Positions 24,023 to 52,148 of a stretch of DNA of 64,000 bases are shown in pieces. Under the pieces are notes generated by a model that saw nothing but the letters and a program-made list of their open reading frames with translations, was not told where the DNA came from and made no database searches. Source of the DNA: Sulfurimonas sp. (lineage in GTDB: Bacteria > Campylobacterota > Campylobacteria > Campylobacterales > Sulfurimonadaceae); NCBI RefSeq assembly GCF_019429335.1, contig NZ_JAHYJB010000001.1, positions 62,001-126,000 on the forward strand, written 5' to 3'. How positions within the stretch are numbered: the first letter of the stretch is position 1; every line of letters begins with the position of its first letter. The translations under genes and the position numbers were made by a program.

Positions 24023-25183
24023 ATGGTAGCGGTATATTATGATGTTGAAAATCTAATGGAATGTAAAAATTACGAATTAGCAATATCTAAAGTTAAAGAA
24101 ATAGTAGCAAATTTGGAAGCTATTCAATTCGCTTATGCGGAGTGGGGGAGATTCGACAATGCTTCAAGAGAGCTATTTGTGTCTAATGGTATAGGTATGA
24201 AGCAAGTAGTCAATGGAGTAGGGTATTATGCAAATATTAAAAATATTTCTGATATTGCAATTACTGTTGATGTCATAGAAATTCTTTTTAAAAATGCAAA
24301 AATAGACCATTTTATTTTAGTCAGTGGTGATGGGGGCTTTATACCTTTGGTTATGAAACTTAGAGAATATGGAAAAAGAGTAAGTATTGTTGCATTAAAT
24401 AAAAATATGAGTAAAAACATTATCAGCTATGTTAATGACTATTTTATTATTGATAAAGAAGATGAATTAGCACCTAGTGAACAAGAAGCACAACCCACAA
24501 CAAATGAGTATGAGCATTATCAAAAAACTATATGGGCTATCATGTGCAGTAGCAAAAACGGGCATGAAGCAGTAACAAATATTTTTAAAAGCAAAGAAAT
24601 TAAAACACGTATCCAAGAGCATGGGTTATCCATAGCCTATCTTAAAAAGACCTACTATAAAACATGCTATGGCAATCCAAAGCAAAGAGAATTATCACAA
24701 GACTTCAAAAAATTTCTTGATCGGAAAATCAAACTTTCATATAGCAAAAAAGATGGGATTATTTTTCCTAAAAGTCAAACAAACGAGGAAGTTGAGGAAG
24801 AGGCGCAAGAGGGTATAGCTCTTACAGACAAGGAGGTTAGAGAGATTTGCAAGGAGTATGGATTAGCTTTTTCGACTTACTCCATATCAGCTGGTTTGTT
24901 TTTAGAGGTTATTTTGAACAAGGAGGAGTGTTTATATAAATCAATAGCAGAGATTATGGATTTTCTTGCGCAGGACAGAAAACGGAAAACAATATATATC
25001 GAAGGAGTGGCAAGAACCATATCGCTTCTGAGTGAAAAAGACAAGGATGTTATATCTCTTCAAAATTACCAATCAATATTGTCAGCTACTTTATCAACTT
25101 TTATTAACGCCGTTTCAAAAGGCGAGAAGAGGGGGATAAATAAATATTCTATTGCCAGTATGTTAAAATGGGAGATACAATGA
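24023..25183 (+). CDS. NYN-domain (PIN-like) nuclease
   Basis: A 386-aa protein. The N-terminal 150 residues form a NYN/LabA-type PIN-like domain: VAVYYDVENLMECK (first catalytic Asp and Asn), SDIAITVDVIEIL (second acidic patch) and HFILVSGDGGFIPLVMKLREYGKRV (third acidic patch). The rest (about residues 165-386) is helical and charged and may hold OST-HTH-like RNA-binding repeats. NYN proteins usually cut RNA. It ends in ATGA with the tyrosine recombinase, and that gene ends in ATGA with cas2, so the three are co-translated. Confidence 0.8.
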   Translation: MVAVYYDVENLMECKNYELAISKVKEIVANLEAIQFAYAEWGRFDNASRELFVSNGIGMKQVVNGVGYYANIKNISDIAITVDVIEILFKNAKIDHFILVSGDGGFIPLVMKLREYGKRVSIVALNKNMSKNIISYVNDYFIIDKEDELAPSEQEAQPTTNEYEHYQKTIWAIMCSSKNGHEAVTNIFKSKEIKTRIQEHGLSIAYLKKTYYKTCYGNPKQRELSQDFKKFLDRKIKLSYSKKDGIIFPKSQTNEEVEEEAQEGIALTDKEVREICKEYGLAFSTYSISAGLFLEVILNKEECLYKSIAEIMDFLAQDRKRKTIYIEGVARTISLLSEKDKDVISLQNYQSILSATLSTFINAVSKGEKRGINKYSIASMLKWEIQ

Positions 25184-26127
25184 CTAATACAACCTTTTGC
25201 CAACAGATCGAAACTTATGCTAAGTCATTACAAACAAAGCTAAAGATAGAAAAGAAGTCAAAGAACACAATTTCTTCTTATATGCAAACATACAAGAGCT
25301 TTATAGAGTTCTGTAAACAGCACTACAAAGAGCTAAGTTTTCAGAACCTCAGAGAAGATGATATATACGCTTTTATAGAGTACAAGTCTGCCACGATGAA
25401 CAAACAGGGCGATATTGCTACGAGTACAGCCAACGGCATCATCTCGCATTTAAAAAGACTATTTAAACATATCGAGAGAAATGCAACAGATGAGGCATAT
25501 AATTTTGATAAGGTATTTGAAGACATAAAACTAAAGCAACCAAAAAGAGTGCCAAAAGGGATAGATGGAAAAGAAGTCAAGAAAATATTGACATATCTTG
25601 AGAGTCTAAAACAAAAAGAAATATTCACGAACTTTAGAAACATTATGCTTTTTAAATTAATGCTCTTTGGAGGATTAAGGGCAAGCGAAGCGGTATCTAT
25701 TAAGTTATCTGATATAAATTTAACGGAAGAGGGTGATTTGTACAAAATTACCTTTAAAGGTAAAGGAGATAAAAGCAGATTCACATATATTGATGTTGAT
25801 GCGATAGAAGATGAAATAAATATGTTCGTAAACGTTTTCAAGTTATCAAAAGATGAGTTTATCTCAAAAACATCTACCGGCAAGCATATGGATAGAATAC
25901 AGCTTAGTAAGATGGTAAATTCTGTTTATAAGAGAGCAGATGTTGATATATCTGGCGTTCATATATTAAGGCACACAGCAGCAAAAAAACTAAAAACACA
26001 AGTGCCTCTTGAGGTGCTAAAAAATTTGTTGGGGCATAGTTCAATTGAGACAACTTCTATCTACATCAATCCAACGGAAGATATGGTTAAGAAACAAATG
26101 TCGGGAGTTAAGCTATACGGTTTATGA
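25180..26127 (+). CDS. Tyrosine recombinase (Xer-like integrase)
   Basis: A 315-aa protein with SAM-like N-terminal core-binding domain and C-terminal catalytic domain. ATG 25180 is used because GGGAG precedes it and it makes ATGA with the NYN gene. Catalytic residues: Arg in GGLRASEAV, Lys in KGKGDKSRFTYID, His-x-x-Arg in VHILRHTAAKKL, His in LLGHSSIETTS, and the Tyr nucleophile in SIYINP. It cuts and joins DNA at specific sites, for integration or dimer resolution. The stop overlaps cas2. No attachment site was identified. Confidence 0.88.
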   Translation: MTNTTFCQQIETYAKSLQTKLKIEKKSKNTISSYMQTYKSFIEFCKQHYKELSFQNLREDDIYAFIEYKSATMNKQGDIATSTANGIISHLKRLFKHIERNATDEAYNFDKVFEDIKLKQPKRVPKGIDGKEVKKILTYLESLKQKEIFTNFRNIMLFKLMLFGGLRASEAVSIKLSDINLTEEGDLYKITFKGKGDKSRFTYIDVDAIEDEINMFVNVFKLSKDEFISKTSTGKHMDRIQLSKMVNSVYKRADVDISGVHILRHTAAKKLKTQVPLEVLKNLLGHSSIETTSIYINPTEDMVKKQMSGVKLYGL

Positions 26128-26429
26128 GGATTTTGGTGTTTTTTGATTTGCCAACGAGGACAAAGAAGAATAGAAAAGATGCAGCAAAATTCCGCTCTTT
26201 TCTGATAAAAAATGGTTTTGATATGCTTCAATTTTCGGTGTATATGAGAGTTTGTAAAGGAAGGGCGTGTGTTGATACTTTTAAACGAAGAGTCAAAGAA
26301 AACACGCCAAAAAAAGGGAATGTAAGAATTCTGCCAGTTCCAAACAGCTTTTACGAAAAAATGGATATTATAATTGGGAAACAAACGGAAATTAAAAAAA
26401 TAGGAAAACGAGGAATTTTAGATTTATAG
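26124..26429 (+). CDS. cas2: CRISPR-associated protein Cas2 (type II)
   Basis: A 101-aa Cas2 of the type II style: MRILVFFDLPTRTKKNRKDA, FRSFLIKNGFDMLQFSVYMR, and the C-terminal VRILPVPNSFYEKMDIIIGK. Asp8 after the first beta strand is kept. Cas2 dimers bridge two Cas1 dimers in the spacer-integration complex. It lies on the plus strand, ATGA-coupled to the recombinase, and is separated from cas1 by the tracrRNA and the array. This is unlike the usual cas9-cas1-cas2 operon. Confidence 0.93.
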   Translation: MRILVFFDLPTRTKKNRKDAAKFRSFLIKNGFDMLQFSVYMRVCKGRACVDTFKRRVKENTPKKGNVRILPVPNSFYEKMDIIIGKQTEIKKIGKRGILDL

Positions 26430-26435
26430 AATCGG

Positions 26436-26517
26436 TTTTGAGGAGATAACCCTTGGATTAGTGCTCCGCTGAGACCGAAAACTCATTGTCGTATTTGACC
26501 TGCCACAGTTAGATACC
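26436..26517 (-). ncRNA. tracrRNA
   Basis: Read on the minus strand, 26516-26491 is an anti-repeat that matches the CRISPR repeat over about 25 bases with one substitution and one inserted A. The body then forms TGAG-loop-CTCA (with TTTTCGGT in the loop) and a larger hairpin at 26467-26442 pairing GGAG..TAATCC with GGGTTA..CTCC. A matching extended promoter lies just upstream. The 3' end is uncertain because no clean T-run follows. It lies in the gap between cas2 and the array. Confidence 0.85.
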
Positions 26518-26521
26518 TGAA

Positions 26522-26550
26522 ATCATAGCAAAAGAAAAAGAAAAAAGCAA
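26522..26550 (-). promoter_or_regulatory. Promoter of the tracrRNA
   Basis: On the minus strand TTGCTT (26550-26545), 17 bases, then TATGAT (26527-26522), with TG one base before the -10 (extended -10). Transcription would start around 26515-26517, at the beginning of the anti-repeat. This agrees with the tracrRNA assignment. Confidence 0.75.
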
Positions 26551-26557: not shown

Positions 26558-26989
26558 GCGAAAAAATATCTAAGTGTGGCAGGTCAATACAGTGTTGAAA
26601 CCTTTATTATTTATCATGATGCGATTATACCGTATCTAAGTGTGGCAGGTCAATGCAGCAACTGAGGAGTATTCCTTTTACACAATATATTATACCGTAT
26701 CTAAGTGTGGCAGGTCAATACAGTTATCACTTTGACAGAATACCGATCCTATCCATTATACCGTATCTAAGTGTGGCAGGTCAATACAGTAAACATGTCA
26801 ATAAAGGGCAATTTATTTTTTATTATACCGTATCTAAGTGTGGCAGGTCAATACAGTTGATGGTTATGATGAGTGTGTGGTTGTTTGATTATACCGTATC
26901 TAAGTGTGGCAGGTCAATACAGTTCGCTAGCTAGTTTATTTCTTTGACTTTTAATTATACCGTATCTAAGTGTGGCAGGTCAATACAGT
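26558..26989 (-). CRISPR. Type II-C CRISPR array, 7 repeats, 6 spacers
   Basis: 36-base repeats start at 26558, 26624, 26689, 26755, 26822, 26888 and 26954, separated by spacers of 29-31 bases. Repeats 3-7 are identical. Repeat 2 has two changes at its right end. Repeat 1 has lost its first nine bases (GCGAAAAAA instead of ATTATACCG). On the minus strand each full repeat contains TTGACC, 18 bases, TATAAT: a promoter inside the repeat, as in Neisseria type II-C arrays. crRNAs are therefore read leftwards, repeat 1 is the old distal end, and new spacers should enter next to cas1. Only 13 bases separate the array from the cas1 stop. No spacer matches elsewhere in the window by eye. Confidence 0.96.
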
Positions 26990-27002: not shown

Positions 27003-27905
27003 CTATAAATCGCCCAAAATGGGCTGTTTCAGCATATTTTCACCGCTTAAAAAACTTTTCCTAAGTGAATCAACGCAAATGCCGATGGCATCGGAGGTTG
27101 TGTGGGTTTTTGAATCTATTGAAATTTTTGATTGTAAAATGGCAAGTAGCTCTAGTTTTTCTTTTTTGTAGATGGTGGGTTGGTCTGGTTTTGTATGAAA
27201 TATATTTTGCACTATTATATCCACCAAAGGGCGGAATGGCTCAATTATATCATCTGCGAGATTGCCAGAGTTGAGATTGCTTGAGTGCCAAATACCAACC
27301 ACTGGCAGAAGTCCACTTGCAGCAATATAGCGGAGAATCGCGGCTCTTAGTATCGCGTAGCCGTAGTTGAGAGCATCGTTTCTCGCATCTATTTCGGTAT
27401 TGCTTTTGCGAATCAGATTTGGAAAAAGTGTCTTGAAGTAGAGGGAAGCAGCATATCCTTCGAGCGCTACTGTGTCGCCATGATAGATTCTGTTTGCAAT
27501 TTCTATGAGCTCTTGGGATTCTTTTTTGTGATTGTATGTAGCCAATACAAAAGACTGATTAAATATTTTTTGATGTAATATGGCTTGCCAAAGTTCATCT
27601 TTTTTCTTTTGTGAAAATTGAAGCTGCGCTTTTGCAAATTGACCATGCCGAATATTTGTACCAATGGGGTTGATGATTCCTGACGGCTGATAGTAGTTGT
27701 CGCACACTACTACAGCTATATTTTGAGATGCCAACCTACCAAGCAGTGCGGAGGTTATAGATATTTGTTGATTTTCGATAACAACTATATCTATATCAAT
27801 AAGAGGAAGCAAAATTGGTTCTTTGGATTCTTTTTTGACTACGAGACTATTATTCGCCAAGCTAACTCTGCTTGGTTCAGAAAGAAGGAGAACCCGCCAA
27901 CCCAA
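27003..27905 (-). CDS. cas1: CRISPR-associated endonuclease Cas1 (type II)
   Basis: A 300-aa Cas1. The start is TTG at 27905, one base after the cas9 stop; MGWRVLLLSE is the usual start of type II Cas1. The metal-binding residues appear intact: Glu149 (ALEGYAASLYF), His207 (VGIWHSSNLN) and Glu222 (DIIEPFRPLVD). Cas1 integrates new spacers together with Cas2. Its preservation suggests that adaptation is, or was recently, active even though Cas9 looks nuclease-dead. Confidence 0.95.
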   Translation of the reverse strand: MGWRVLLLSEPSRVSLANNSLVVKKESKEPILLPLIDIDIVVIENQQISITSALLGRLASQNIAVVVCDNYYQPSGIINPIGTNIRHGQFAKAQLQFSQKKKDELWQAILHQKIFNQSFVLATYNHKKESQELIEIANRIYHGDTVALEGYAASLYFKTLFPNLIRKSNTEIDARNDALNYGYAILRAAILRYIAASGLLPVVGIWHSSNLNSGNLADDIIEPFRPLVDIIVQNIFHTKPDQPTIYKKEKLELLAILQSKISIDSKTHTTSDAIGICVDSLRKSFLSGENMLKQPILGDL

Positions 27906-27906: not shown

Positions 27907-30900
27907 CTATTTTCTTTTTTGCTTGAGTGTTGGCATACGAGGTTCTGACTTTACAGGATAGTAAAAGCCAAGTGGATCAACTGTGTATTTTACAATCTCG
28001 GCCGTACCACCACCAATAGTAAGCGGCGTGTCCGCTATGATATCAAGAGCCAATGTTGCTCTGTTGAAACTTGTATAATATCCTATTCTCATGTTTCCTT
28101 TTTGCATTATCCCTATCAGATCATTTCGATACAGGGTAAACTTAAATTCCTCGCCGCTAACAACGTCGGTATTGCCTCTTGAATCAATCAAAGCTACATC
28201 AGAAAGAGGCTTTTTTGTGTCAGCTATATATATTGGAATAAAGGCATTTTTCTTTCCGTTTTTGAATACATCTAATCTGAATATAGACTTGTGTGCAGCT
28301 AATGCTGTTCCATCTCTAACAACAACACCTTTTGCATTTTCTCCAAAACCTTTAATCGAAGAAACTCCCGCATCGTGCGCAGGACCAGTCGTACTCTTTC
28401 TTGGAGTTTTTGCTATAAGTAGCCTTTTTCTAAGCACCCCGTTTCGATCATATTCGCTTCTATCGTATTGAAGCAGCTTTATAGCATCTGTTTTAAATTC
28501 AGGATAAGGCTTGTCAAAACGCTTTTTTTCTTTTTCCCAACTAACCGCTTCTTCTCCTTTGTCTCTTTTTGATTGAAGCCACTCTTTAGTCCATTTTGTC
28601 TCTTTCCATTTAAAATGTTGAGTTAAATTTTTAATCATATGCTCAGTGCTAAATGCAACAAGAATAGCGTTTAAGACACTTATCCTATCGGCATGTTCTT
28701 GATATGTCTCAAATCCAATCCATTGTCTGCGTAATTCTGCCGTAAGCCAAGCATTTCGAGTAAATACTTGTATTTTGCCACCCAGTGGAGATTTTGGCAT
28801 ATCAAGATAATCTTCAAAAAGCTGTTTAATGACTCTTGCTGCATATTGTCTTGATTTTTCAAGTCGTTTTGAAGCCGCATCTGCTGCACTTTGATCATTA
28901 AAATTTTCTTTTAATAGGCGATTGACTTTCCCCCTGCCAAGTTTTGCAAAAAACATAGGCGAGGAGACAAGTGATTTAAACGATTCCCACTTGTCGCTGT
29001 TATCACCAAGCCACTCAAAAGGAGTTTTATCCTCTTTGTCAATTTTTTGTTCCGCAAAGGTTAATACCTTGTTGCCGAATGTTTCATCAAAACTGCGACT
29101 TCTAGGAAGTATGTAATCAACTGCTGCATAGCCATCTTCATAGAGACGCTCAATTTCAAACTTTTTACCTGTATATAAATCCATTTCGTTTTGTTGAGTG
29201 AAGAGCATCATCTTCTCAATATTTCTTCGATTTTCATGATTGATCTTTTCTCCAAACAGCTCTTTTATTTTGGTTTTAGCTATGTTCTTTTGTGCTTCAC
29301 GCTCCCTTTGTGCAGCGTCAATCATCTTTTTTTCTGCATTGGTGTTCATATCGGAACCAAGCTCTATATGTACTTTATGAAATGAGCCGTGAAAACGAAT
29401 AACTTCATTCACGATGGTACGAAGCTTTGCAACAACGCGTAAGACTATTGGGTTATTAACTTCAATATTTGTATTAATTAAGGCAGGTAAAAAATGACTT
29501 TTATCAAATGTCGTCACCCCTAGTTCGAGAACTGATTGGTCATAACGCATGCCCTCTCTCATTTTTGGCAAAACAACATCAAGTGCCTTATGAGAAAGAT
29601 TTATTGTCTCTTTGAAAATTTTAGGGTCTGCCTTCTCAATAAGCTTTTCGATAATGCTTTCTTTTAAACCTAACTTTTGCAAGCGAGTTTTGATGCTATT
29701 TTCTCCACGCTCCACCGTAAGGACAAATGCCACATCATTATAAACACCCTCAATAGCCTTAAAGTCATCCATAAGAGCATTCTTGAGAGTGTGATATGCT
29801 TTCATCTCAACAAGAGCTTTTTTCTCATATTTATAATCTAAAACTATCTCGTCCTCAGGTTCTTCATTGAACAGTCCTGTTTTTGCTATAGCAGCTTTTT
29901 TTGAAGCTTTTTTAGTCTTTGTGTCATATTTAACGCCTTTAAAAATCCATTCATCGCCGAGAGATAGTCGTTTTCTAATGTCAGAATGAGAGATTGAAGC
30001 TTTTTCTTTTGCCATCGTCATTAGCTCATCCAATGGCATTAGCTCTGTTATTTTTTTTTCAATACCTGTTCCAGACATCTCAAGTACACAATTTATAAAA
30101 CGAGTAAGAGCAACAAACTCTTCGGCATCCAAAGAAGCTTTGACTGCTCTTGTCTCATTGGGAAAAAATGTACATTTGCCAAGCAGTCTTTCCGTGCTTT
30201 GCGGATCAGGCATAAAAAACGCTAAATCTTTAAATTCTTTTTTAAGTTCATTTGTTGTTATTTTACTCCCAAGTGATTGCTGTGTTGTAAAAATTACATC
30301 AATTTCTTGTTTGAGTAGCCAACGAGGAGTAGAACGATCATAGGTTGCTTCTTTGGAAGTCTTCCCTTTTTTATCAACAACAGCTATGTGTGTATTTCTT
30401 TTTCTGTCCAGTTTGGCTAAATATTCCCCAACTGTTTTGCTACTAGATTCCTCGATGGCACTAACCAATGCTCTTCCAGCTTCTTTAATTTTTCCACTCT
30501 CTCCATCATGCATGTCTATTTCTTCTGCACGCGTGAATTGATATCCTCTTTTGCCGCCGATATGATATAGTATTCTTGCAAGTTCTTCACCATCTAACAG
30601 TTCACCAAGGGCCTTGGCTCTAAGATGCCAAGGAGAGATGTTTTGAGAGATAAATACCTCAAAATCAATGTCTTTGTTAAGTAAATCATATTCAACAAAA
30701 AGGGAACGCATAGCAGCTTTGCGTTTGCGTTTTTTCTTAATTGTTCGACGTGCAAGTCTTGCGTCTCTGCGTGGTTTGTTTGGGGATTCGCCGGTCTTTG
30801 GAATCTCCCCCGCATTAAAATCAAAACCACCGCAGTCAACAATTAGATTTTCACTTGTATCTTTTGGATTATGCTCTATTAAAGCCCATCCAATTCTTTT

Positions 30901-30936
30901 TTTTGTGATGTCTAATCCTAAGATTCTTTCTGTCAT
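27907..30936 (-). CDS. cas9: Cas9, type II-C size, with degraded nuclease centres
   Basis: A 1009-aa Cas9, close to the size of Campylobacter Cas9. RuvC-I keeps Asp9 (ILGLDITKKRIGWAL), an Arg-rich bridge helix follows (RRDARLARRTIKKKRKRK), and RuvC-II keeps Glu525 (VHIELGSDMN). The HNH centre reads VDYILPRSRSFDETF: the catalytic His is Tyr608, and the Asn 23 residues later is Lys631. RuvC-III reads ISVLNAILVAF where HHAIDAVIIA is expected: the His is Ser753 and the Asp is Asn756. The frame is intact and the rest is well conserved, so binding of guide RNA and DNA is expected but not cutting. It is followed directly by cas1. Confidence 0.93.
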   Translation of the reverse strand: MTERILGLDITKKRIGWALIEHNPKDTSENLIVDCGGFDFNAGEIPKTGESPNKPRRDARLARRTIKKKRKRKAAMRSLFVEYDLLNKDIDFEVFISQNISPWHLRAKALGELLDGEELARILYHIGGKRGYQFTRAEEIDMHDGESGKIKEAGRALVSAIEESSSKTVGEYLAKLDRKRNTHIAVVDKKGKTSKEATYDRSTPRWLLKQEIDVIFTTQQSLGSKITTNELKKEFKDLAFFMPDPQSTERLLGKCTFFPNETRAVKASLDAEEFVALTRFINCVLEMSGTGIEKKITELMPLDELMTMAKEKASISHSDIRKRLSLGDEWIFKGVKYDTKTKKASKKAAIAKTGLFNEEPEDEIVLDYKYEKKALVEMKAYHTLKNALMDDFKAIEGVYNDVAFVLTVERGENSIKTRLQKLGLKESIIEKLIEKADPKIFKETINLSHKALDVVLPKMREGMRYDQSVLELGVTTFDKSHFLPALINTNIEVNNPIVLRVVAKLRTIVNEVIRFHGSFHKVHIELGSDMNTNAEKKMIDAAQREREAQKNIAKTKIKELFGEKINHENRRNIEKMMLFTQQNEMDLYTGKKFEIERLYEDGYAAVDYILPRSRSFDETFGNKVLTFAEQKIDKEDKTPFEWLGDNSDKWESFKSLVSSPMFFAKLGRGKVNRLLKENFNDQSAADAASKRLEKSRQYAARVIKQLFEDYLDMPKSPLGGKIQVFTRNAWLTAELRRQWIGFETYQEHADRISVLNAILVAFSTEHMIKNLTQHFKWKETKWTKEWLQSKRDKGEEAVSWEKEKKRFDKPYPEFKTDAIKLLQYDRSEYDRNGVLRKRLLIAKTPRKSTTGPAHDAGVSSIKGFGENAKGVVVRDGTALAAHKSIFRLDVFKNGKKNAFIPIYIADTKKPLSDVALIDSRGNTDVVSGEEFKFTLYRNDLIGIMQKGNMRIGYYTSFNRATLALDIIADTPLTIGGGTAEIVKYTVDPLGFYYPVKSEPRMPTLKQKRK

Positions 30937-34502: not shown

Positions 34503-36641
34503 TTAATCTCCAACTCTTGGTCCCCATGGATCATCACCAACAGGCATCGAGTCTATAGCCATATCTGTTAATGACTGTGCATCAAAGCCTTTTGTAGTTT
34601 GTTTCATTATCGCTAAATTCAACTCTTCCCATTTGTCAGCAGGAAAACATTTGTCTTTAGCAGGTTCTTCGTTATTGAGACATTTTCTAAAAGAGATGTT
34701 TTTTAGATCTCCTAACTCTATATCAGAGCATACGTTTCTTCGCCACCCCCTTGGAATTTGAGCCTTTGTTCCTTCGACAAATATTCTAGTCATTTCTTGA
34801 TCGTAGCAACAGTAATAATGCTTATCTCTCATACATGAACCCCAAAACCACTTAGCAGCACACTCCGAATCAGTATAGTGGCATTGATTAAAAGCGAGTG
34901 CTTTTTGTGTTTTATATTGTTGTATTCCCCATTTCATTGCTATATCTTCGTCGTGACAAGCATCTCCATCTGAAATGGCTGTAAATATTTTTAACGCAAT
35001 ACTTGCCATTAAATTGTATGGTGGTGGTAAATATGTTAACGCTTGATTTAGTACAGCAGTTGCCATGGCTTCCACATTTATGCCGCTGTTATCGTTTGCA
35101 ATTTGGCTGTTAACATTGATTGCTAAGGCGATACGACCGTTACCGCAGATTACTTGCCCTGCTTGTTGATACCCAAGTGATGTAATTGCTATATAATTTC
35201 CGATATCTCCATTATGACTTATTTGAATATAGGTCGCTCTAACAAAAGCTTCGCTGGTTGCGTTCATTAAATATGCAAGTTGATTATCAGACATTGTTAT
35301 TATATTTTTCCAAGGCTCCCTTAGCTCCGTAGACATTGCTCCATCACTATCTATTGCGTGCCCCATCATATTTGGAAAACTAAGACCTACCGCCGCCATA
35401 CATTGCGCATAATTCACTGCTGCAATAGATGCATCTGTGGCACCAAGTTGAGCTTGCATATATTCATCTGCGATTTGAAAATCATCTTCAGTCGGTTTAC
35501 TAAAAGCAGCCATAGCAACAGCAGCGATATCCATTGTTGCACTTCCGTATGTTACAGCGGTTGTATAACTAGTTGCACCGATAAGTTCTGTATCGAGAAA
35601 ATTTTGAATATTTGCCCATTCGCTATTTAATACTGTTTCAGTTGCGTTATATGCTACGGTCGCAGCCTGCCCAACCTCTGTCGCTGTATCAACAGCTTCG
35701 GCACTATCGCTTACGAGTTGTCCGGCAGATTGAGAAGAAAACCCTACTGCATCCGTTGCGTTTGAAACCGCATCGCCGACACCAGAAACAGCGTTGCTTA
35801 CCGCATTAGAAGCCGATGTAGCGGCTCCAGAAATGCTAGCTGCTGCTGCATCAAAATTTGATAATACAGTATTTGTAGCATTAGCTGCCATGTCTGTTGC
35901 CGCTTGACCATAAGCCCCAGACAACGCCCCTGTATAAGCCATACTAGCAAAGGAAAGCAGTGTCATCGGATCTGACAAGAACGAACTATCGAACTGAATC
36001 CCATCTTCACACATACCATCCCAGCCACTCCAGATGTGCTGAAATTGCTCCATTCCTGCAACCGCCGCCATTGCCTCCTCATGACCATTAAACTCTTTAC
36101 TCTCCCATCCAATTTGACTCAAATCAAATGTTGTATCGTCATCTATTATTTGTATCTCATATGCCAAACATCCTCCAAAGAGAGTCTCTGTGCTTTTGCA
36201 ATCCCAAGAGATGTTATATCTAGTAAAAACTGTTTTACCAGTCCAATCAGAAACAGGATTTGATTTATCAAAAGAGACGGGCGTACAATCTGGATTGTCC
36301 GTCCATGGAATACAGTTTTTTTGTAAGTAACATTTCGTGTTACAGGTACTTTGATTTGAAAAAACATTAAGATCTACATCTCCTCCTAAATCAGTGTTTG
36401 CTTCGTACAAAGGGCATGTAAAGCCTCCCACAGCACTGTTTGTGCAAACTTCAGTTGTACGGCATGCACTTTTGCAGGATGTTATATCTGCATATTTTGT
36501 TAAAACCGTATCATCATTAACATCAACCTCTTCTTGCATAAGCCAATCTTGAAATGCCTGATCGGTTGAACATATGTATTGTGCGTTTAAGTTCAATGTC
36601 AATGTTAAAAATATTAATAACTTTATGGCTGTTTTCATCAA
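34503..36641 (-). CDS. TraN-like mating-pair stabilisation protein
   Basis: A 712-aa exported Cys-rich protein (signal MMKTAIKLLIFLTLTLNLNA). The C-terminal third carries the TraN signature: SECAAKWFWGSCMRDKHYYC and CYDQEMTRIFVEGTKAQIPR, then DIELGDLKNISFRKC. The middle (about residues 225-350) is a low-complexity Ala/Ser/Val-rich helical region not seen in F TraN. TraN is the outer-membrane adhesin that recognises the recipient. The many Cys would need the DsbC-like protein of this operon for folding. Confidence 0.7.
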   Translation of the reverse strand: MMKTAIKLLIFLTLTLNLNAQYICSTDQAFQDWLMQEEVDVNDDTVLTKYADITSCKSACRTTEVCTNSAVGGFTCPLYEANTDLGGDVDLNVFSNQSTCNTKCYLQKNCIPWTDNPDCTPVSFDKSNPVSDWTGKTVFTRYNISWDCKSTETLFGGCLAYEIQIIDDDTTFDLSQIGWESKEFNGHEEAMAAVAGMEQFQHIWSGWDGMCEDGIQFDSSFLSDPMTLLSFASMAYTGALSGAYGQAATDMAANATNTVLSNFDAAAASISGAATSASNAVSNAVSGVGDAVSNATDAVGFSSQSAGQLVSDSAEAVDTATEVGQAATVAYNATETVLNSEWANIQNFLDTELIGATSYTTAVTYGSATMDIAAVAMAAFSKPTEDDFQIADEYMQAQLGATDASIAAVNYAQCMAAVGLSFPNMMGHAIDSDGAMSTELREPWKNIITMSDNQLAYLMNATSEAFVRATYIQISHNGDIGNYIAITSLGYQQAGQVICGNGRIALAINVNSQIANDNSGINVEAMATAVLNQALTYLPPPYNLMASIALKIFTAISDGDACHDEDIAMKWGIQQYKTQKALAFNQCHYTDSECAAKWFWGSCMRDKHYYCCYDQEMTRIFVEGTKAQIPRGWRRNVCSDIELGDLKNISFRKCLNNEEPAKDKCFPADKWEELNLAIMKQTTKGFDAQSLTDMAIDSMPVGDDPWGPRVGD

Positions 36642-36652
36642 TTTTCCCCTTG

Positions 36653-38716
36653 TTAGTATGGTGCGGAAATAACAGGCTCTTCATAACAAAAATACTCTCT
36701 ATTCTCATAGAGTTTTAATTTTGAAATAAACACACGGTTTGGATATCCAAGCGGATAGACAAGAGGAATGACTGTATAAGTACTGGTAAGCATGTCTTTT
36801 ATAATAACTCTTTTAATTGCTTTTGATTTTGAGTAAGTGCCACTTGCCTGCGCTTGGCAATATTCTCCGGTTTTAGAACCTTTATTCCCATAAACACCTC
36901 CACCATAATCAACAAAGTTATCTTGAAGGCATAAAGAGTCTTCGTTGTTTGCGTTTAATTCTGGTGCAGTTTCAAATTGATCGGCTAAAAACAATTGCTT
37001 AAAACTAATACTGTTTGTTAATAAATCAAAATCGCTACCTGCAATATCTTGTTGTGCAACCAACTCTCCATCATTGTTATAAAAATAAAGCTTGTAATAG
37101 CCCACGTATGGAAACATTATCGCTAGAGAACCGAGGGTATTGTCCCATAGTTTCAAGTATGTTTCGCTATATTTTGGATAATATGGGAAGTCTTCTTTGT
37201 AGACGGATGGGGTTGCCTCTATATTATCAATAACAACTTTGGAAGAGATATAATGATTTCTCGCACTAAAAGAACCTTCAAATCCATTTAACCCACTATC
37301 TTCGAATTCGCTTGCCTGCTGAACCGAAACTATATCTCCTTCGTTAATAGTTACTTGTTGGTTAAAGCTATAATGCCCACTATTTGGTATACACTGTACA
37401 ACCCCTCCCATTTCAGCAAAATTCAATTTACTCCCTTGATTTGCGTTGTGCTGTTGATTGCAATAGACAACGCTATGAGTGTCATCCGCATGATGTACAG
37501 TTAGATAAATATCATCATCAAGATAACCAGATCCTTTTGCCATAATATATGTTACATCTTCTCTACTTTCCTCTATCGTGTTTGACCTAACACAATCTTC
37601 TCTTGTGGCATAGACATCAACGGCACCGGATAGAACATTTGCATCATGAACTGTATAATGCAAGTCATAAGATTGGTCGATTATATCTGTTGTCGTGTTT
37701 GTAATCGTTGCTCCTTGCTCGGTACAAACATTTCTAGTTTGTCTGAAACTATCAACCCTGCATGTGACTTCAAATGCTTGCCCGTTGTTTGATGCTTCCA
37801 CTGGGCATGTACCAACAAAACCGACAATGTTGCCGGTAGTAATATCTCTAACGGGCTGATTCTCATCACAATACTTCATAATGCTATCATCCAGTGGAGT
37901 GCTTGGATCATCAGGTTTACATTCATAAGGATGCATAGCAACTGTAACTTCATCGATACAATTAGCAAAATTAGTAAAGCTTCCTCCGGGACAAACAAAC
38001 TGTTCTGTGACTAAATCAACCTTGCTCTCGTATGTTTGTGGTGTTGCTGAAGATATTTCTACGTTATAAAGCGATTCAACTTCATATCCAATTGACCTGC
38101 CGCTTCGTTCACAATTTTCTTCAACCCAAGTTCCGCAGTTGTTTTTTTTGCATTGTGCTTGAATAGGATTATTAAAGCACTCGTCGCTGATTGTTTTGTC
38201 ATAATATGTTGTGCAGGTTACTTTTCCGCTAGGGAGTTGAGCTGAAGACTGCCAAGCATTACAAACAGATACGTTTTTCGGAGGTCTAGGTCTTTGCATA
38301 GTGGCAATAAAAGCTCTAAAATCATCTCCTTGAACACCCGTATCTTTCTCGATAGCATATTCTCTTTCAACTCTCCACCAAGGCAGACATACTGATATAT
38401 TGTTCTCTTGTCCTGTGACATCAGGAGTAAAGACTTTGCAATCTTCCCCCGTGGGATCAATAGATCCATATCCTACAAATATCTTTTTCCCTTCCAAGGC
38501 AGACATGTCTTTGTTTTTATAAATATCGATTGAAATTTCATTAGGAAGATTCTCTTTAAACTCATAATATTGCAATGCTGTCGGCTCTGCCGTATTTGAT
38601 GTAACTTTGGAGTTTAAAAAATACGCAGAATCTCTTTCAACTGACTCTACACCATCATTAGCACTTAGCGCAAAGGTAAAAATAAATAATAAATTAAAAA
38701 TTATATTTTTTTTCAT
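36653..38716 (-). CDS. Large exported Cys-rich protein, 687 aa
   Basis: It has a signal peptide (MKKNIIFNLLFIFTFALSA) and about twenty Cys in the first 450 residues, in short spacings (FVCPGGSFTNFANC, CKKNNCGTWVEENC). The second half is beta-rich, with the TVIPLVYPLGYPN motif near the end. It lies next to the TraN-like gene and resembles it in style but lacks the TraN C terminus. It could be a surface component of the mating apparatus. Function not recognised. Confidence 0.6.
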   Translation of the reverse strand: MKKNIIFNLLFIFTFALSANDGVESVERDSAYFLNSKVTSNTAEPTALQYYEFKENLPNEISIDIYKNKDMSALEGKKIFVGYGSIDPTGEDCKVFTPDVTGQENNISVCLPWWRVEREYAIEKDTGVQGDDFRAFIATMQRPRPPKNVSVCNAWQSSAQLPSGKVTCTTYYDKTISDECFNNPIQAQCKKNNCGTWVEENCERSGRSIGYEVESLYNVEISSATPQTYESKVDLVTEQFVCPGGSFTNFANCIDEVTVAMHPYECKPDDPSTPLDDSIMKYCDENQPVRDITTGNIVGFVGTCPVEASNNGQAFEVTCRVDSFRQTRNVCTEQGATITNTTTDIIDQSYDLHYTVHDANVLSGAVDVYATREDCVRSNTIEESREDVTYIMAKGSGYLDDDIYLTVHHADDTHSVVYCNQQHNANQGSKLNFAEMGGVVQCIPNSGHYSFNQQVTINEGDIVSVQQASEFEDSGLNGFEGSFSARNHYISSKVVIDNIEATPSVYKEDFPYYPKYSETYLKLWDNTLGSLAIMFPYVGYYKLYFYNNDGELVAQQDIAGSDFDLLTNSISFKQLFLADQFETAPELNANNEDSLCLQDNFVDYGGGVYGNKGSKTGEYCQAQASGTYSKSKAIKRVIIKDMLTSTYTVIPLVYPLGYPNRVFISKLKLYENREYFCYEEPVISAPY

Positions 38717-39309
38717 TTCATAAATCCTATGGGGAGATAGTTGATTATTTTTGTATTACATCTTAACTCACATATCAAAAGAATAAATGAAAGTAAAATA
38801 AAAGATGAAGGGGAAAACACCCCTTTAAAAAACATTTTTATATCTTGAGAAGAGAGTGTGCTTGCCCAAATTAACTGTAGAGCAATGTATATTAAGAGCC
38901 AGTTGCTTAGTGAAAAAAAACTAGAATAATCCGCACTAAAATATATATTTCCATTTTCAAAGCCCAATGATATATATCCATAATGTGAGAGAATATAATA
39001 TAAAGCCACAATCCAAACCAGAGGTGCTGCTGATATAAAAACGAGAGCTATATCAAATTTTGGAATTGATAGAACATGCCCGTAAACAACCTGATCCTTT
39101 TTAATTTTCGGAATTATGGTAAATCCTGAAACGGTTTTGTGAATTTTATTACCGTTTTCATCTTCATCCTCGATGATTGCTTTTGTCGGAGTATGCGAAA
39201 AGGTTAATTTTGCAACTATCCAATGCGCTGCTTCATGTAAGAAAGTCCCCGGCAAATAAAAAAGGAATTGTGTAAAAACACTAATATAAAGATAAACTCT
39301 ACTCAACAT
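38713..39309 (-). CDS. Membrane HExxH protease-like protein
   Basis: A 198-aa multi-helix membrane protein. ATG 39309 overlaps the preceding stop; an upstream ATG at 39378 is possible. PGTFLHEAAHWIVAK contains the zinc-protease motif HEAAH at the end of the first membrane helix, as in M50 site-2 proteases. A second NPDG-like motif was not found. A soluble loop (about residues 33-75) separates it from further helices. It may process or anchor proteins in the membrane; its place among the secreted adhesin-like proteins suggests those as substrates. Inference only. Confidence 0.6.
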   Translation of the reverse strand: MLSRVYLYISVFTQFLFYLPGTFLHEAAHWIVAKLTFSHTPTKAIIEDEDENGNKIHKTVSGFTIIPKIKKDQVVYGHVLSIPKFDIALVFISAAPLVWIVALYYILSHYGYISLGFENGNIYFSADYSSFFSLSNWLLIYIALQLIWASTLSSQDIKMFFKGVFSPSSFILLSFILLICELRCNTKIINYLPIGFMK

Positions 39310-40702
39310 CGCATGCCCCATCTCTATTTTCAACATATCCATCAGGACATTGAAGCTGAAGGCATGTGACTTCTCCACCGCCTATATCTTTTTGAGTTGC
39401 TTCTGGAGGGCATACATCTTGATAGCAGTTACCATTTTCTTCATAAACTCCAAAAGATGTAGGACACCTAGACTCTCCTCCACACCTTCCAAGTTTTTCA
39501 AAAACAGCGGCATCACAGATAGTGTCATTACAAATCTGAGATAAATCCACTCCAATCAGAGGAGAATTATCAAAATCTACCCCACCTGGTTGCGCCACTC
39601 CATTTGTGCATTGTGCAATTCCGCACTCTTGATTTGCATCACACAAATATGGACTGCATTGCCATTGATTGTCAACCCAAGCAGGCTCTCTTACATCAGA
39701 ATTACATGTATATTTAAGTGCTTTACAGTTATCATCTGGCGGTGTTTCGCCGTTACAAGGATCATCTAAAGTAGATGTATTATCAAGTGTAAGATTTGGA
39801 TCTGTTTTTAAGCAGTCTCCGCCATCGTCAATAACCGTTCCTGTAGAGCATAGATAGTTGTAGTATGTGTAACTTACTGTCTTTTTACAGTTCGTGCCGT
39901 TATCGGTGTAGCCTGTGGGGCAGGTTGTACATGTAGTTCCTGAGAGAGTTCCGCCACTAGGGCATAAGTAAGTAGATGCTCCTTGATTTTTAATTACTTT
40001 TCCCTGAGTAGTGGAACTCCAGCTACCGTTTCTGTTGCTGGTACTCCAATATGCAATTTTCGTAATCACATTATCACTTTTTATTACGGGCGGGATGTCA
40101 CTCCAAGTTCCATCAGAATTCTTAATTTGGAATTGTCTGTCCGATAACATTCTTTTATATGTATATGTGTATTGCGTCACATAGCATCTACAACTTCTGC
40201 TATATACTTTTTTAGAAGTTCGACCTGCTTTCCACACACTCCCTATGTACCAATCTCCAATTTCATCATCCATGCCGTCTTCACTATAAACAATGTGCCG
40301 CAATAGGAGCGTATATGTGGGAGGAGGAGTATATTCTGTTGCTACATAACTTACCTTCGCCGTATAATCAACAACAGTTCCCGTCTTCGCCACACTATAC
40401 GCATCACTATAATCCCAATAGGTGTCAGCAGGGGCTAGGGCTTCGGGGCAATATATATTACTGTAAGAATCTGATTTACATTGATGTATGATAGTGTCTC
40501 TTGGGTACACCGCCAATATCTTATCAATCTCTACCGTTATTTTTTTCACTTCTATCATAATCATAGGAATAGAGGATTCTATGGTAGTTGGATCTTTCGT
40601 TATATCAAACACTGTGGAGGTTGGATTATTCAACTGCTGAATTGTATATGAATGTATTATCGACACAAAAAATAAAAAAAGAAAGATTGATTTTTTTAAC
40701 AT
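39299..40702 (-). CDS. Exported Cys-rich repeat protein, 467 aa
   Basis: It has a signal peptide (MLKKSIFLFLFFVSIIHS). The C-terminal half has repeated cysteine motifs of the type CPxGxxxxxGxC (CPSGGTLSGTTCTTCPTGYT, CPDGYVENRDGACD), as in EGF/TNFR-like extracellular modules. The N-terminal half is beta-rich with many Tyr and Thr. It is probably a surface adhesin or pilus-associated protein. Not recognised as a standard Tra protein. Confidence 0.6.
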   Translation of the reverse strand: MLKKSIFLFLFFVSIIHSYTIQQLNNPTSTVFDITKDPTTIESSIPMIMIEVKKITVEIDKILAVYPRDTIIHQCKSDSYSNIYCPEALAPADTYWDYSDAYSVAKTGTVVDYTAKVSYVATEYTPPPTYTLLLRHIVYSEDGMDDEIGDWYIGSVWKAGRTSKKVYSRSCRCYVTQYTYTYKRMLSDRQFQIKNSDGTWSDIPPVIKSDNVITKIAYWSTSNRNGSWSSTTQGKVIKNQGASTYLCPSGGTLSGTTCTTCPTGYTDNGTNCKKTVSYTYYNYLCSTGTVIDDGGDCLKTDPNLTLDNTSTLDDPCNGETPPDDNCKALKYTCNSDVREPAWVDNQWQCSPYLCDANQECGIAQCTNGVAQPGGVDFDNSPLIGVDLSQICNDTICDAAVFEKLGRCGGESRCPTSFGVYEENGNCYQDVCPPEATQKDIGGGEVTCLQLQCPDGYVENRDGACDVE

Positions 40703-40713
40703 TGCATATCCTT

Positions 40714-43164
40714 TTAGTACATAAAAATATAGATAAATCCGTTTTTACCTATATCAGCCGCTCTTGGTTTTATCCTGACTTTTAAACTATTATTATTAGC
40801 TGGTCCATATTGAAAAATTTCTATATCATTATTTGTTTCAACATTATCGCCCTTGATAAATTTATCATAACTGTGCCCGTTTACCATCTCATATATTTTA
40901 GCTCCATAGTTATTAACTTGATTGGTTTTTGGATTGCTATTATCTATTGCATTTATTTGATTAATTAAATCTGTGTATGTTAAGTTTGTTGGTGACAACA
41001 TAGTATATATTTGAAATGAAGCCACACCTTCTCCGGTGCCATCAAACTCTCCTATATAATAATTTGTATTATACCCGCCAGCGGCAGACTCTTTTCTTCT
41101 AATAATTCCGGGTAGTGCATAATGCATTTCCCCTAATGAATCAAATATCTTGTACTCATACCAATATTTATCGGGGGCAAAAGCTTCTGTTGCAAAAGAA
41201 GGAGCAAGTCCGGATGCAGATAACTCTATCCACGTATTTCCGTTAAATGTCTCAAGATTAAATGTGGTTGCATTATTATAATTTAACACTGGATTAATTT
41301 TCCCATTCCCAATATCTGCCACAGATGCAGTAGCATAATCTTTTGCTCTCATAAAAGGTTTAAATGAATCAGTAATAGATGTTTTAATGTACCATACTTG
41401 ATCTCTAACCATTTGATTCCCGGTAAAAGTGTAATAATATTTTTCAATATCGACTTTTACAACAGAATAGAGCTTGTAGTTATTTCCGTCATTATAAAAA
41501 AGCGCATTTGGTTTTAGCCTCCAAACCATTTCACGCCTAGATGTTGCCGTAATGTTTCCATATGCCGCACCGTTAGCAAGATTAATATAATATGCGAAGC
41601 GTGAAGGAGTTTCTTCTCCTAACCCAACAACACTAGATGAATATGTTCCAGAATGAAGCATATTTTCATAAGCACTATCTTTCCACTCTTCCCTTTTTTG
41701 TATTTCATAACTTAGATTTGTAGCAGAAGATATTCTCGGTCTGTCGGTATTTGGTACCAATGAACCATTGAGTACAGTTTGAAAAGGTGTGTTTTTTGCA
41801 TCAAAAACAATCTCGTTCAAAACTCTTTCCTTAGTTAGTCTAGCATTTGTACAATCAACATCTGCGACTATTGCATTCATATCAGCAGATGTATACTCAC
41901 CGTCACTCGTAATTCTTCCAATTCTTCCTTCTCTAAACTGTTCAAATATTGTTGCATCAAATGAACCGAACTCGACATTACATTTTTTTGGAATATTGCA
42001 AGTGCTTTTACATTTTTTTCGGTCTGAATAAGTTCCATCAGGATTGTCTCCTGCATAAACGCCCTCTGAGCATATCTCAAACCCATTAAACCCTGTAATT
42101 GTTCCGCTGGGGCATCTGTCGCCAAATTCTTCAGAGCCTCTAAGCATTGCTACATCTTGAAGTCCTGCACAAATATACTTGGAACCATCTTCGTAATCAA
42201 TTAACACGCTTGTTAGCTTCATATTTGATGTTGTATTGTTATCAAGAGATTTAAAACTAAAAGTTAATTCATTAATAGCCTCTCCCACATATATTTGTTC
42301 TTTCCCTCTGAGTAATTCTATCCAGACATCTTTTACTAAAAAAATATTTTGATTTTTTATATTTATATATGAGATATCCATGTAAATTCTAGGACTCTCT
42401 ATATCACTATTATCTATATTGCTGATTGAACTCACATTTAACTCAAAGTTTAGATATTTTATTTTCTTGGTGCTGTCTAATTGTGTGTATTGTTCAGTAT
42501 GTGTAATACTAGAATCAAAATTAAAAATTTTGTCTTCAAAAACAACGCTATTTGCAGGATTGTTTTCAACTTCCAAACAGTCAACTTCTCTTTTGCAATT
42601 TTCACGACAAAGATTTAATGCCTCCTTACCAGACATTCCGTCCATATTCAATACTTCGCCATTAGCAACTTGCGCAACAGTAGAACCTCCATACACTAGG
42701 TTTGTCTCTTCACATCGATACCTAAACGGGAGGTCTCTTGCAGTAAAACATCTTAATGTGTTTTGATCAGGTGTTTGATTTGGTTGATATGTTGCATTAG
42801 ATACCACGTTAGACTTGACTTGGGAGTTATAGTTGTCTGTATATCCAGAAGCTGCTTCGGATGCATTGGCATCAGAATTAAAAGATTCTACGGTAAGTTT
42901 TGACGTATCGGATGTCATGCCTCTTTTCAGGAATGGGCTATCATTCATAAATAGCATTGTGTTTCCGACCGCTCCATTTGTTGAACCCTTAAGCGTTTCA
43001 TCCCAATTTTTAATGTTCCAATTAGACTCGTTTGGGTCCACTACGGATGTAGACGGAAGATTGTGTGTTACTCTTGTGCTAGATATATCGTTTGTTATGT
43101 TTTGGTCTGCGTATAAAATATTTATAAAAACAAATAAATAGGTTAAAAAAGTTTTTTGCCACAT
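40714..43164 (-). CDS. Very large exported Cys-rich protein, 816 aa
   Basis: It has a signal peptide (MWQKTFLTYLFVFINILYA). The first 400 residues carry clustered Cys (CRENCKREVDC, CKSTCNIPKKC) with CPSGTITGFNGFEIC, a style similar to TraN-family N termini. The C-terminal half is beta-rich and without Cys. It lies directly downstream of trbC, where F plasmids have traN. It could be the true TraN equivalent or a partner. The function is inferred from context. Confidence 0.6.
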   Translation of the reverse strand: MWQKTFLTYLFVFINILYADQNITNDISSTRVTHNLPSTSVVDPNESNWNIKNWDETLKGSTNGAVGNTMLFMNDSPFLKRGMTSDTSKLTVESFNSDANASEAASGYTDNYNSQVKSNVVSNATYQPNQTPDQNTLRCFTARDLPFRYRCEETNLVYGGSTVAQVANGEVLNMDGMSGKEALNLCRENCKREVDCLEVENNPANSVVFEDKIFNFDSSITHTEQYTQLDSTKKIKYLNFELNVSSISNIDNSDIESPRIYMDISYINIKNQNIFLVKDVWIELLRGKEQIYVGEAINELTFSFKSLDNNTTSNMKLTSVLIDYEDGSKYICAGLQDVAMLRGSEEFGDRCPSGTITGFNGFEICSEGVYAGDNPDGTYSDRKKCKSTCNIPKKCNVEFGSFDATIFEQFREGRIGRITSDGEYTSADMNAIVADVDCTNARLTKERVLNEIVFDAKNTPFQTVLNGSLVPNTDRPRISSATNLSYEIQKREEWKDSAYENMLHSGTYSSSVVGLGEETPSRFAYYINLANGAAYGNITATSRREMVWRLKPNALFYNDGNNYKLYSVVKVDIEKYYYTFTGNQMVRDQVWYIKTSITDSFKPFMRAKDYATASVADIGNGKINPVLNYNNATTFNLETFNGNTWIELSASGLAPSFATEAFAPDKYWYEYKIFDSLGEMHYALPGIIRRKESAAGGYNTNYYIGEFDGTGEGVASFQIYTMLSPTNLTYTDLINQINAIDNSNPKTNQVNNYGAKIYEMVNGHSYDKFIKGDNVETNNDIEIFQYGPANNNSLKVRIKPRAADIGKNGFIYIFMY

Positions 43165-43167
43165 CTA

Positions 43168-43935
43168 CTACTCCCGTCCTTCAAGCACGTTGATGAATTT
43201 TTCATAATACTTATCCTCTCTGATAATAATTTCAAGTGCAGCATGTAATGGGATATCGCCTCTGACTAAATATTTATTTTCACATTTTTTATATTGAAAT
43301 TCGCCGGAAGAGCATTTTGAAAACAGATATGCAGGTACTCGGTTAAGTTCTAAATCTTTAAAAATAAGCGGATGCATCTTGATTATAGCTTTTGTACCAA
43401 GTTCCTCATCGAACTTAAAGGGCTTATAAAGAGATTCAAGCTCTTTATTGTTTAGAATGCCTTGCACAACGCCATAATATTTAATCTCTTTTTCGACAGT
43501 TTCAAGGCTTGAAGCATCTGAGACAAAATTAAATAAATTTGTTGCATCTTGAGACATAGAGAAGAGGTAAAATATTGTGTCTACTTTTTCATTGTTTTGT
43601 GAGTTGTTTTTATTTATTGCATCAACCGCCTTTTGAATCTCTTTGTCGTATTCGCCGTCGAGCATATTTTGACTTATCCATGGCAGAGATTTTAATATCG
43701 CCTTATCACTTTTATATTTTAAATCATCAAGCACTTCCTCGTGCTGTTGGGTTATTTCAGTCAAGTTGCTTGAAAAATCCATTTTTTGTAAAAAATCATT
43801 TTTTGTTTTCTTGGATGTATTAATATCCGTATAGCTCTTTACCTGCTGCTTCATATCTTGAATAAAAGAATTGAAATCAGCAAATAAAATTGAGCAATTT
43901 AAGAAGAGTAAAGCAATCAAAACTTTAAGCATCAT
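43168..43935 (-). CDS. trbC: TrbC, F-type pilus assembly protein
   Basis: A 255-aa exported protein (signal MMLKVLIALLFLNCSILFA). ATG 43935 overlaps the traU stop. The TrbC_Ftype region shows IFYLFSMSQDATNLFNFVSD, YYGVVQGILN, MHPLIFKDLELNRVPAYLFS and VRGDIPLHAALEII. It helps pilus assembly in the periplasm. Position next to traU and traW fits the F order. Confidence 0.8.
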   Translation of the reverse strand: MMLKVLIALLFLNCSILFADFNSFIQDMKQQVKSYTDINTSKKTKNDFLQKMDFSSNLTEITQQHEEVLDDLKYKSDKAILKSLPWISQNMLDGEYDKEIQKAVDAINKNNSQNNEKVDTIFYLFSMSQDATNLFNFVSDASSLETVEKEIKYYGVVQGILNNKELESLYKPFKFDEELGTKAIIKMHPLIFKDLELNRVPAYLFSKCSSGEFQYKKCENKYLVRGDIPLHAALEIIIREDKYYEKFINVLEGRE

Positions 43936-44912: not shown

Positions 44913-45538
44913 TCAGAATCCTTTGTGGCAGACTCTACTAAATCATCTGGTTTGTATTCATAAACAGCCATTTGATTTCCATCTTGAATAATAATTGACG
45001 GAACGCACTTTGCGTCAAATTTCCCTATTGTCAAAAAGTCTGCTTTAAAAGCCTTTGTTGTTGTGATTTTCTCGTACTCTTCGATAGAACCATTTGTAAT
45101 ATATGTAAAACCTTGATTTTTATATCTATATGAAAGCTGCACTTGAATAGGATCTTCTGCGTCAATGAACATCATATACTTGTTTATGACAATGTTATTT
45201 TTCTTCATCACATCAAGCGTATTCATAACTTCTCCGGCTCTTGCGATAACTTTTCCATTTGGCAAAACAATATCAGCAGGAACTATAAAGGTTGGAGTAA
45301 AAAATCTTTTTTTACTCTCAGTACACGTAGGAAGTAATTTTTTTATATTTAAAAATTCTTTTTGACTTAAATAAAACTGATCCTGAATTAACGATGTATT
45401 TAAATCTTTGGCATGTTTTTCGACTTTATTTATAAAATTCTCTTCTTTGATTGAATGTGTAGCGCCATAAGTACCTAGATCTTCTAGGGCAAAAATGGAA
45501 CTCAAAACAAGTGAAGCGAAAAATGCAACTTTAATCAT
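44909..45538 (-). CDS. traW: TraW, F-type pilus assembly protein
   Basis: A 209-aa exported protein from ATG 45538 (MIKVAFFASLVLSSIFALED). It shows the TraW layout: LGTYGATHSIKEENFINKVE, RFFTPTFIVPADIVLPNGKV, MFIDAEDPIQV and CVPSIIIQDGNQMAVYE. It cooperates with TrbC and TraU in pilus assembly. The start lies directly after the upstream Sel1 stop. Confidence 0.85.
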   Translation of the reverse strand: MIKVAFFASLVLSSIFALEDLGTYGATHSIKEENFINKVEKHAKDLNTSLIQDQFYLSQKEFLNIKKLLPTCTESKKRFFTPTFIVPADIVLPNGKVIARAGEVMNTLDVMKKNNIVINKYMMFIDAEDPIQVQLSYRYKNQGFTYITNGSIEEYEKITTTKAFKADFLTIGKFDAKCVPSIIIQDGNQMAVYEYKPDDLVESATKDSE

Positions 45539-45539
45539 T

Positions 45540-46145: not shown

Positions 46146-46233
46146 TTTTTAATTTTCTCCTCAATGCCGCAGTTATTGATATTTTATCTTAAGTTTAATT
46201 TTTATTAACTTAAAATATACTTATTGTATTATT

Positions 46234-46968: not shown

Positions 46969-47015
46969 ATTTTTTCAACCTTCATAAAAAAGAATTTTAT
47001 CTTCATGCTTCGATA

Positions 47016-52147: not shown

Positions 52148-52148
52148 T

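Follow-up and report, generated by a model that had tools for sequence, protein, structure and literature searches.

The 64-kb stretch of Sulfurimonas sp. DNA analysed here (the window) encodes a CRISPR-Cas locus whose Cas9 has lost catalytic residues in both nuclease centres. The locus is probably a type II-C variant that performs guided binding without cutting and that conjugative elements, here an integrative conjugative element (ICE), carry as a programmable means of silencing other mobile elements. Rather less firmly, we favour the view that it is a nuclease-dead type II CRISPR-Cas system which still updates its memory, and by which conjugative elements would practise adaptive interference against rivals, integrated residents included. 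Coordinates are those of the window unless given as genome:contig; G000 is the genome carrying the window.

Catalytic losses in Cas9 and their conservation

Catalytic positions were assigned by alignment to Nme1Cas9, to other solved chains and to the Cas9s of related genomes. Most of the chain could be aligned to solved II-C Cas9s, which were its best solved matches. The original prediction had named four substitutions, Tyr608, Lys631, Ser753 and Asn756; all four, and their coordinates (Table 1), proved right in the alignment to II-C Cas9s. As it had also stated, Asp9 and Glu525 are present, the bridge helix is still arginine-rich and the frame of 1009 codons is open; the arginines kept are R56, R57, R60, R63 and R64. 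Two observations that could have overturned it were looked for: neither a shifted intact catalytic residue near the four altered positions of the alignments nor a near-identical catalytic relative was found.

The protein has the Cas9 architecture of split RuvC, HNH, bridge helix and REC/WED/PI regions. Also as in type II-C, the locus contains 36-bp repeats with internal promoters and a trans-activating CRISPR RNA (tracrRNA), both predicted from sequence, and type II cas1 and cas2 genes with no adjacent csn2 or cas4 among the neighbouring genes scanned. Type II-C members have nuclease-competent HNH and RuvC centres, and because these are missing here (H to Y, N to K, H to S and D to N) the locus is classed, on these features, as a II-C variant and not as an ordinary member. 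A structure model of the protein (pLDDT 77, pTM 0.47) was of good local quality and weak in its global arrangement. The HNH strands and helix were present in it (residues 604-608, 623-627 and 628-634), and its best structural matches were Nme1, Hpa, Thermo and Geo Cas9. The predicted structure supports the fold; because pTM was only 0.47, no active-site geometry is claimed.

When 228 genomes of the family were searched, a single other Cas9 stood out. It is encoded in G049, a member of another genus, and is 67% identical to the window Cas9; its four positions are occupied by Tyr, Lys, Gly and Asn. All other well-aligned Cas9s found in family, order and phylum searches have kept His, Asn, His and Asp there, with two exceptions described below (fragments and the weakest matches were left out of this survey). 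In a tree of 44 Cas9s the window and G049 proteins formed one clade with 100/100 support and a long stem, nested inside a catalytic clade. The nearest Cas9s outside the pair are catalytic II-C proteins of the same family (L033, L034 and L035), at 34-39% identity. Among columns at least 95% invariant across 23 catalytic Cas9s, 29 of 129 were altered in each of the two dead proteins, which mostly carry the identical residue there; in a control, six pairs of catalytic relatives changed 0-3 of ~134 such columns. The columns changed in both cluster at RuvC-I (11-14), HNH (608-632), 687-696 and RuvC-III (745-756). The catalytic losses thus exceed chance. The simplest reading of the tree and alignment is a single ancestral inactivation followed by long conservation, and the loss in the window Cas9, judged by this comparison, is not a recent lesion. 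No close relatives were found in genome_contigs or viral_contigs, with either the single protein or the dead pair as query; plasmid and phage collections yielded distant Cas9s only, and searches at order, phylum and sister-family level gave no further dead member.

Selection was estimated from the window and G049 cas9 genes as the ratio of non-synonymous (pN) to synonymous (pS) differences. This ratio was used instead of a formal dN/dS because dS was saturated (pS 0.91, pN 0.23). By domain, pN/pS was 0.10 for RuvC-I, 0.11 for RuvC-II, 0.18 for HNH, 0.15 for RuvC-III, 0.22 for REC and 0.50 for WED/PI. In neutral simulations of the 1009-codon frame, stop codons arose in every replicate at 0.05 substitutions per site. 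From the low values in HNH and RuvC (0.10-0.18) it follows that the dead nuclease domains are held by purifying selection. The fastest-evolving part, WED/PI, is the region that should read the repeat and the protospacer adjacent motif (PAM). The original prediction had taken the four losses themselves to imply selection. They are insufficient for that; selection for a dead Cas9 is accepted because a distant relative conserves the losses.

The two exceptions in the residue survey are as follows. L003 (G022:C23:12287-15208) is a close sister whose HNH and RuvC Asp are intact. Its second RuvC-III His is replaced by Gly (THHGADAV), which may reflect a shifted alignment where one residue is inserted. 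The other, in G326, is an unrelated altered Cas9 present in two inverted copies (L101-L102; G326:C1:692324-695533 on the plus and 716135-719344 on the minus strand), with RuvC-I D to E, RuvC-II E to A, HNH N to S and RuvC-III D to N. No CRISPR-like repeats were seen in the 48 kb read around it, and it forms a longer branch beside a catalytic relative in the tree. It looks like an orphan in decay, or else an independent exaptation.

Array, guide RNAs and adaptation genes

The two dead loci share the unusual layout cas9-cas1-array-tracrRNA-cas2, with cas2 beyond the array and facing cas9-cas1, whereas cas9, cas1 and cas2 are co-oriented in three catalytic sisters. The active-site residues E/H/E are kept in Cas1 of G049 as well as in that of the window. 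Promoters inside the repeats are a known II-C design, and six of the seven window repeats carry TTGACC-18-TATAAT, which matches the sigma-70 consensus at 11 of 12 positions; the terminal repeat lacks the -10 box. Since Rfam gave no match on the window at gathering thresholds, the tracrRNA was located through its anti-repeat. A counterpart in G049 could be aligned with it. The calculated repeat:tracrRNA duplexes of window and G049 were -37.8 and -30.9 kcal/mol for the cognate pairs, compared with -20.1 and -14.4 kcal/mol for the swapped ones. Repeat and tracrRNA have co-varied, the predicted pairing being kept while both partners changed.

The window spacers are 29-31 bp long. Repeats are near-identical within the arrays of both dead loci, and no spacer is common to the two. 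Since the split of the lineages is younger than the losses, arrays without a common spacer mean that at least one lineage, and probably both, gained its spacers after the death of Cas9. Spacer uptake thus very probably continued after nuclease activity was lost.

The neighbours of the cas genes are a tyrosine recombinase gene, of which a distant relative lies near the G049 locus, and a lipoprotein-like gene. Immediately upstream of the recombinase gene and cas2 is an NYN-domain gene (24023-25183, plus strand; Pfam 4.3e-21, PADLOC NYN model), which could serve the ICE as another defence gene.

Carrier element and spacer targets

A chromosomal contig of 220.7 kb (G000:C63) contains the window. 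A 20-bp direct repeat, TTCAAGAGAATTTACATTAT, at G000:C63 33579 and 131828 bounds an element of 98.3 kb and provides its attachment (att) repeats; an integrase is encoded at one end (G000:C63 34330-35253), and TraE is found among the F-type conjugation genes besides those listed in Table 1. With integrase, att repeats and conjugation genes within a chromosome, the element is an ICE, and the entire window lies inside it. The G049 locus is on an 80.9-kb contig with homologues of the window TraN, TraU and TraC genes.

Two features of the ICE are unusual. Its first att copy lies ~150 bases 3' of rnpB, and a position just 3' of the RNase P RNA gene is an uncommon integration site. TraC, the F-type secretion ATPase (57009-60689, minus strand), has a C-terminal EAL domain of the cyclic di-GMP phosphodiesterase type (residues ~971-1221); such a fusion is unusual and might couple conjugation to cyclic di-GMP.

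Each array was searched as one continuous natural stretch. Targets were identified for five spacers of the two arrays, and all five lie on integrative mobile elements; in G000 and in G049 alike, some target is in the own assembly. Window spacers 3 and 6 match a single island at tRNA-Arg, present in G000 (G000:C73, where the genes flanking the island are chromosomal) and in G089. Spacer 3 overlaps the -35 box of the sole promoter with 12/12 consensus matches in the stretch scanned, and spacer 6 overlaps a Shine-Dalgarno sequence and ATG. All own-genome matches of the window array (2/6 spacers) are on this one island of 10.7 kb, which is 0.5% of the genome; this is not the pattern of random self-DNA uptake. 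One G049 spacer matches its own assembly at 30/30 positions, within a small element whose recombinase is similar. Two other G049 spacers match, with 1 and 0 mismatches, an element of G081 that carries TrwC relaxase, topoisomerase and coupling-protein genes, the perfect match being inside the coupling-protein gene. All five spacers are oriented in the sense of the adjacent gene or promoter. Two catalytic sister arrays gave no self-targets at E <= 1e-4. Spacers 1, 2 and 4, searched as exact partial patterns, had no match in viral_contigs, and the arrays had no convincing match in phages and plasmids.

The targeted island of G000 (L058:15340-20000, L059), which adjoins tRNA-Arg, encodes a divergent recombinase without Pfam match, a helix-turn-helix excisionase-like protein and a replication-initiator-like protein (phrog_2562), and the targeted G049 element (L068) encodes a related recombinase (phrog_1). 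Both elements are small, integrative and related to each other, and they possibly form a family of mobilisable islands or satellites.

Table 1. Features of the window, with their coordinates and the basis of each assignment
Feature	Position	Strand	Basis
cas9, 1009 aa, both nuclease centres altered	27907..30936	-	open frame of 1009 codons; TIGR01865 433.8 bits; alignments
Tyr608, replaces HNH catalytic His	29113..29115	-	alignment to solved and related-genome Cas9s
Lys631, replaces HNH Asn	29044..29046	-	alignment to solved and related-genome Cas9s
Ser753, replaces RuvC-III His	28678..28680	-	alignment to solved and related-genome Cas9s
Asn756, replaces RuvC-III Asp	28669..28671	-	alignment to solved and related-genome Cas9s
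Asp9 (RuvC-I), kept	30910..30912	-	alignment
Glu525 (RuvC-II), kept	29362..29364	-	alignment
cas1, type II, active-site E/H/E kept	27003..27905	-	TIGR03639 272.7 bits; alignment to solved Cas1
CRISPR array, 7 repeats of 36 bp, 6 spacers, minus-strand reading	26558..26989	-	
Leader-proximal repeat ACTGTATTGACCTGCCACACTTAGATACGGTATAAT, with TTGACC-18-TATAAT	26954..26989	-	
Spacer 1, target search negative	26924..26953	-	
Spacer 2, target search negative	26858..26887	-	
Spacer 3, targets island in own genome (2 mismatches) and G089 (3 mismatches)	26791..26821	-	
Spacer 4, target search negative	26725..26754	-	
Spacer 5, target search negative	26660..26688	-	
Spacer 6, targets the island of spacer 3 in own genome (3 mismatches) and G089 (1 mismatch)	26594..26623	-	
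Terminal repeat, degenerate 3' end (-10 box)	26558..26593	-	
tracrRNA (predicted), anti-repeat 26490-26523, then stem-loop tail	26430..26525	-	
cas2, far side of array, convergent with cas9-cas1	26124..26429	+	TIGR01573 81.1 bits
Tyrosine recombinase, 4-base overlap with cas2 start	25168..26127	+	gene scans
F-type conjugation genes of the host ICE (TraN, TraU, TraW, TraC, TraB)	34503..63690	-	

Interpretation and relation to known systems

In the mechanism that we propose, Cas1-Cas2 would add spacers, the promoter in each repeat would drive a CRISPR RNA (crRNA), and the tracrRNA would pair with it and load Cas9. The Cas9 complex, expected from its sequence to bind targets without double-strand cleavage, would occupy promoter or 5' regions of a rival element and block the rival's genes. 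Rivals would be silenced on entering the cell or when already resident, and integrated chromosomal targets would be tolerated because nothing is cut. An elongation block is not the obvious mode, because all five guides are same-sense; the orientation is easier to reconcile with interference at promoters and 5' regions that stops initiation, or with a block of excision or replication. The binding-only role on a mobile element that the original prediction suggested fits the location in an ICE and the targets on mobile elements, some in the same genome. The sequence itself establishes the altered centres and their conservation, the intact adaptation genes, the covariation of the guide RNAs and the targets on mobile elements; DNA binding, the process blocked (transcription, excision, replication or transfer), the resulting silencing and the benefit to the carrier are what we infer from this.

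Several observations weigh against this reading. The dead clade has two members only. The own-genome matches of spacers 3 and 6 are imperfect, with 2 and 3 mismatches. Co-residence of target and carrier rests on assemblies: contamination of G000 is 1.48%, and the self-target of G049 is on a separate contig of 9.4 kb. The proximity of the protospacers (n=5) to gene starts, these being mechanically called genes, was not significant (Fisher p 0.11 and 0.27). No single PAM emerged, +3 being G in 3/3 G049 targets and T in 2/2 window targets. SpCas9 blocks elongation best on the other strand, and by this analogy the orientation of the five spacers would not be the best one for an elongation block.

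Five other explanations were considered. Cas9 might be kept only for spacer acquisition, choosing the PAM with Cas1-Cas2, while the crRNAs are used by another nuclease. Type II acquisition needs Cas9, a cleavage-dead Cas9 still supports it (PMC6990116), and Cas1-Cas2 are intact in the window. However, neither G000 nor G049 has a second Cas9, the tracrRNA and repeats match the window Cas9, and an array without effector would not be selected, so that we regard this explanation as improbable. Just as improbable is a regulatory role directed at host genes instead of rival mobile elements. The genome of the carrier can itself contain targets, and Francisella Cas9 represses its own genes (PMC6990116), but 5/5 targets are on mobile elements and both own-genome matches of the window array fall on one small island.

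A shade less credible is an anti-CRISPR decoy, the role proposed for phage II-C2 Cas9, in which the dead Cas9 would sequester crRNAs made by a resident type II system. The genus is rich in catalytic Cas9s, and disarming them would be to the advantage of a mobile element. The window locus, however, has its own array, cas1 and cas2, all absent from the phage variant (PMC10910872). Its repeats are unlike resident ones (those of the catalytic sister arrays; no match in G000), neither carrier genome encodes another Cas9, and the spacers match mobile elements.

More doubtful still is RNA targeting, or residual nicking by a rearranged site. II-C Cas9s cut RNA with HNH, which is dead here. Asp9 and Glu525 are kept and some II-C Cas9s do cut RNA (PMC6990116), but RNA targeting is disfavoured because the crRNAs of the five same-sense spacers could not pair with the neighbouring mRNAs. 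Least credible is a decaying pseudogene that lost its sites by drift: the catalytic residues are gone and the unrelated G326 orphan does resemble decay, but two lineages at synonymous saturation hold the same losses without a stop, their HNH and RuvC domains are constrained, their guide RNAs covary, and their arrays combine near-identical repeats with unshared spacers.

If silencing by guided binding is indeed the function of the locus, the engineered tool dCas9 would have an equivalent in nature that is conserved and has an array, a tracrRNA and adaptation genes of its own. Integrated residents would become addressable, which a cutting Cas9 could attempt only by killing the host. Two questions would become accessible to tests: whether selection favours binding by itself, be it as immunity or as a means of competition among mobile elements, and what governs the choice of spacers once a mistaken one no longer kills. 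The locus may also supply a compact, naturally non-cutting Cas9.

Among known systems, the closest Cas9s outside the dead pair belong to the catalytic II-C loci of the family (L033, L034 and L035), which likewise have an array, cas1 and cas2. They differ in their intact H/N/H/D and co-oriented cas genes, and in having no self-target in the two arrays tested. The phage II-C2 variant resembles the window system in having a II-C Cas9 with inactivated nuclease, a tracrRNA and a mobile genome (PMC10910872, PMC12669027); the inactivated type II effectors mentioned in the relevant passages of the 2025 classification are these phage proteins (PMC12669027). There, however, RuvC alone is dead, HNH is active, the array is missing (PMC10910872) and an anti-CRISPR role is proposed, whereas in the window HNH is altered too and the array has seven repeats. 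The Francisella scaRNA-Cas9 is a natural Cas9 that represses transcription without cutting, but it is catalytic and avoids cutting by partial guide pairing (PMC6990116).

Type V-M (Cas12m) is likewise an array-bearing class 2 system, often plasmid-borne, with a single effector that has lost double-strand cleavage; Cas12m confers protection when, once bound, it stops transcription or replication (PMC11013384, PMC10442227, PMC11656645). Its effector is a Cas12 with one nuclease site, whereas the window has a Cas9 with tracrRNA and with both HNH and RuvC altered, so that the effector families are separate. Type IV-A, itself a natural binding-only system (PMC11656645), shares carriage by conjugative elements, nuclease independence and aim at competing elements (PMC11656645, PMC11551745). 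It consists of a multi-subunit complex and DinG, often without cas1-cas2, whereas the window has a single Cas9 and its own cas1-cas2; a Csf complex and DinG helicase had no match among the neighbouring genes scanned, which are part of the element's genes. Literature text searches, which excluded preprints and covered few subscription papers, yielded no natural Cas9 with both centres dead and its own array. If the proposed function is right, type II evolution would have reached the solution that type V found in Cas12m and that type IV-A also represents. Natural binding-only systems are described in types V-C and V-M (PMC12669027, PMC11013384, PMC10442227). We rate the window system as new as a type II-C variant, the binding-only principle being already known in V-C, V-M and IV-A.
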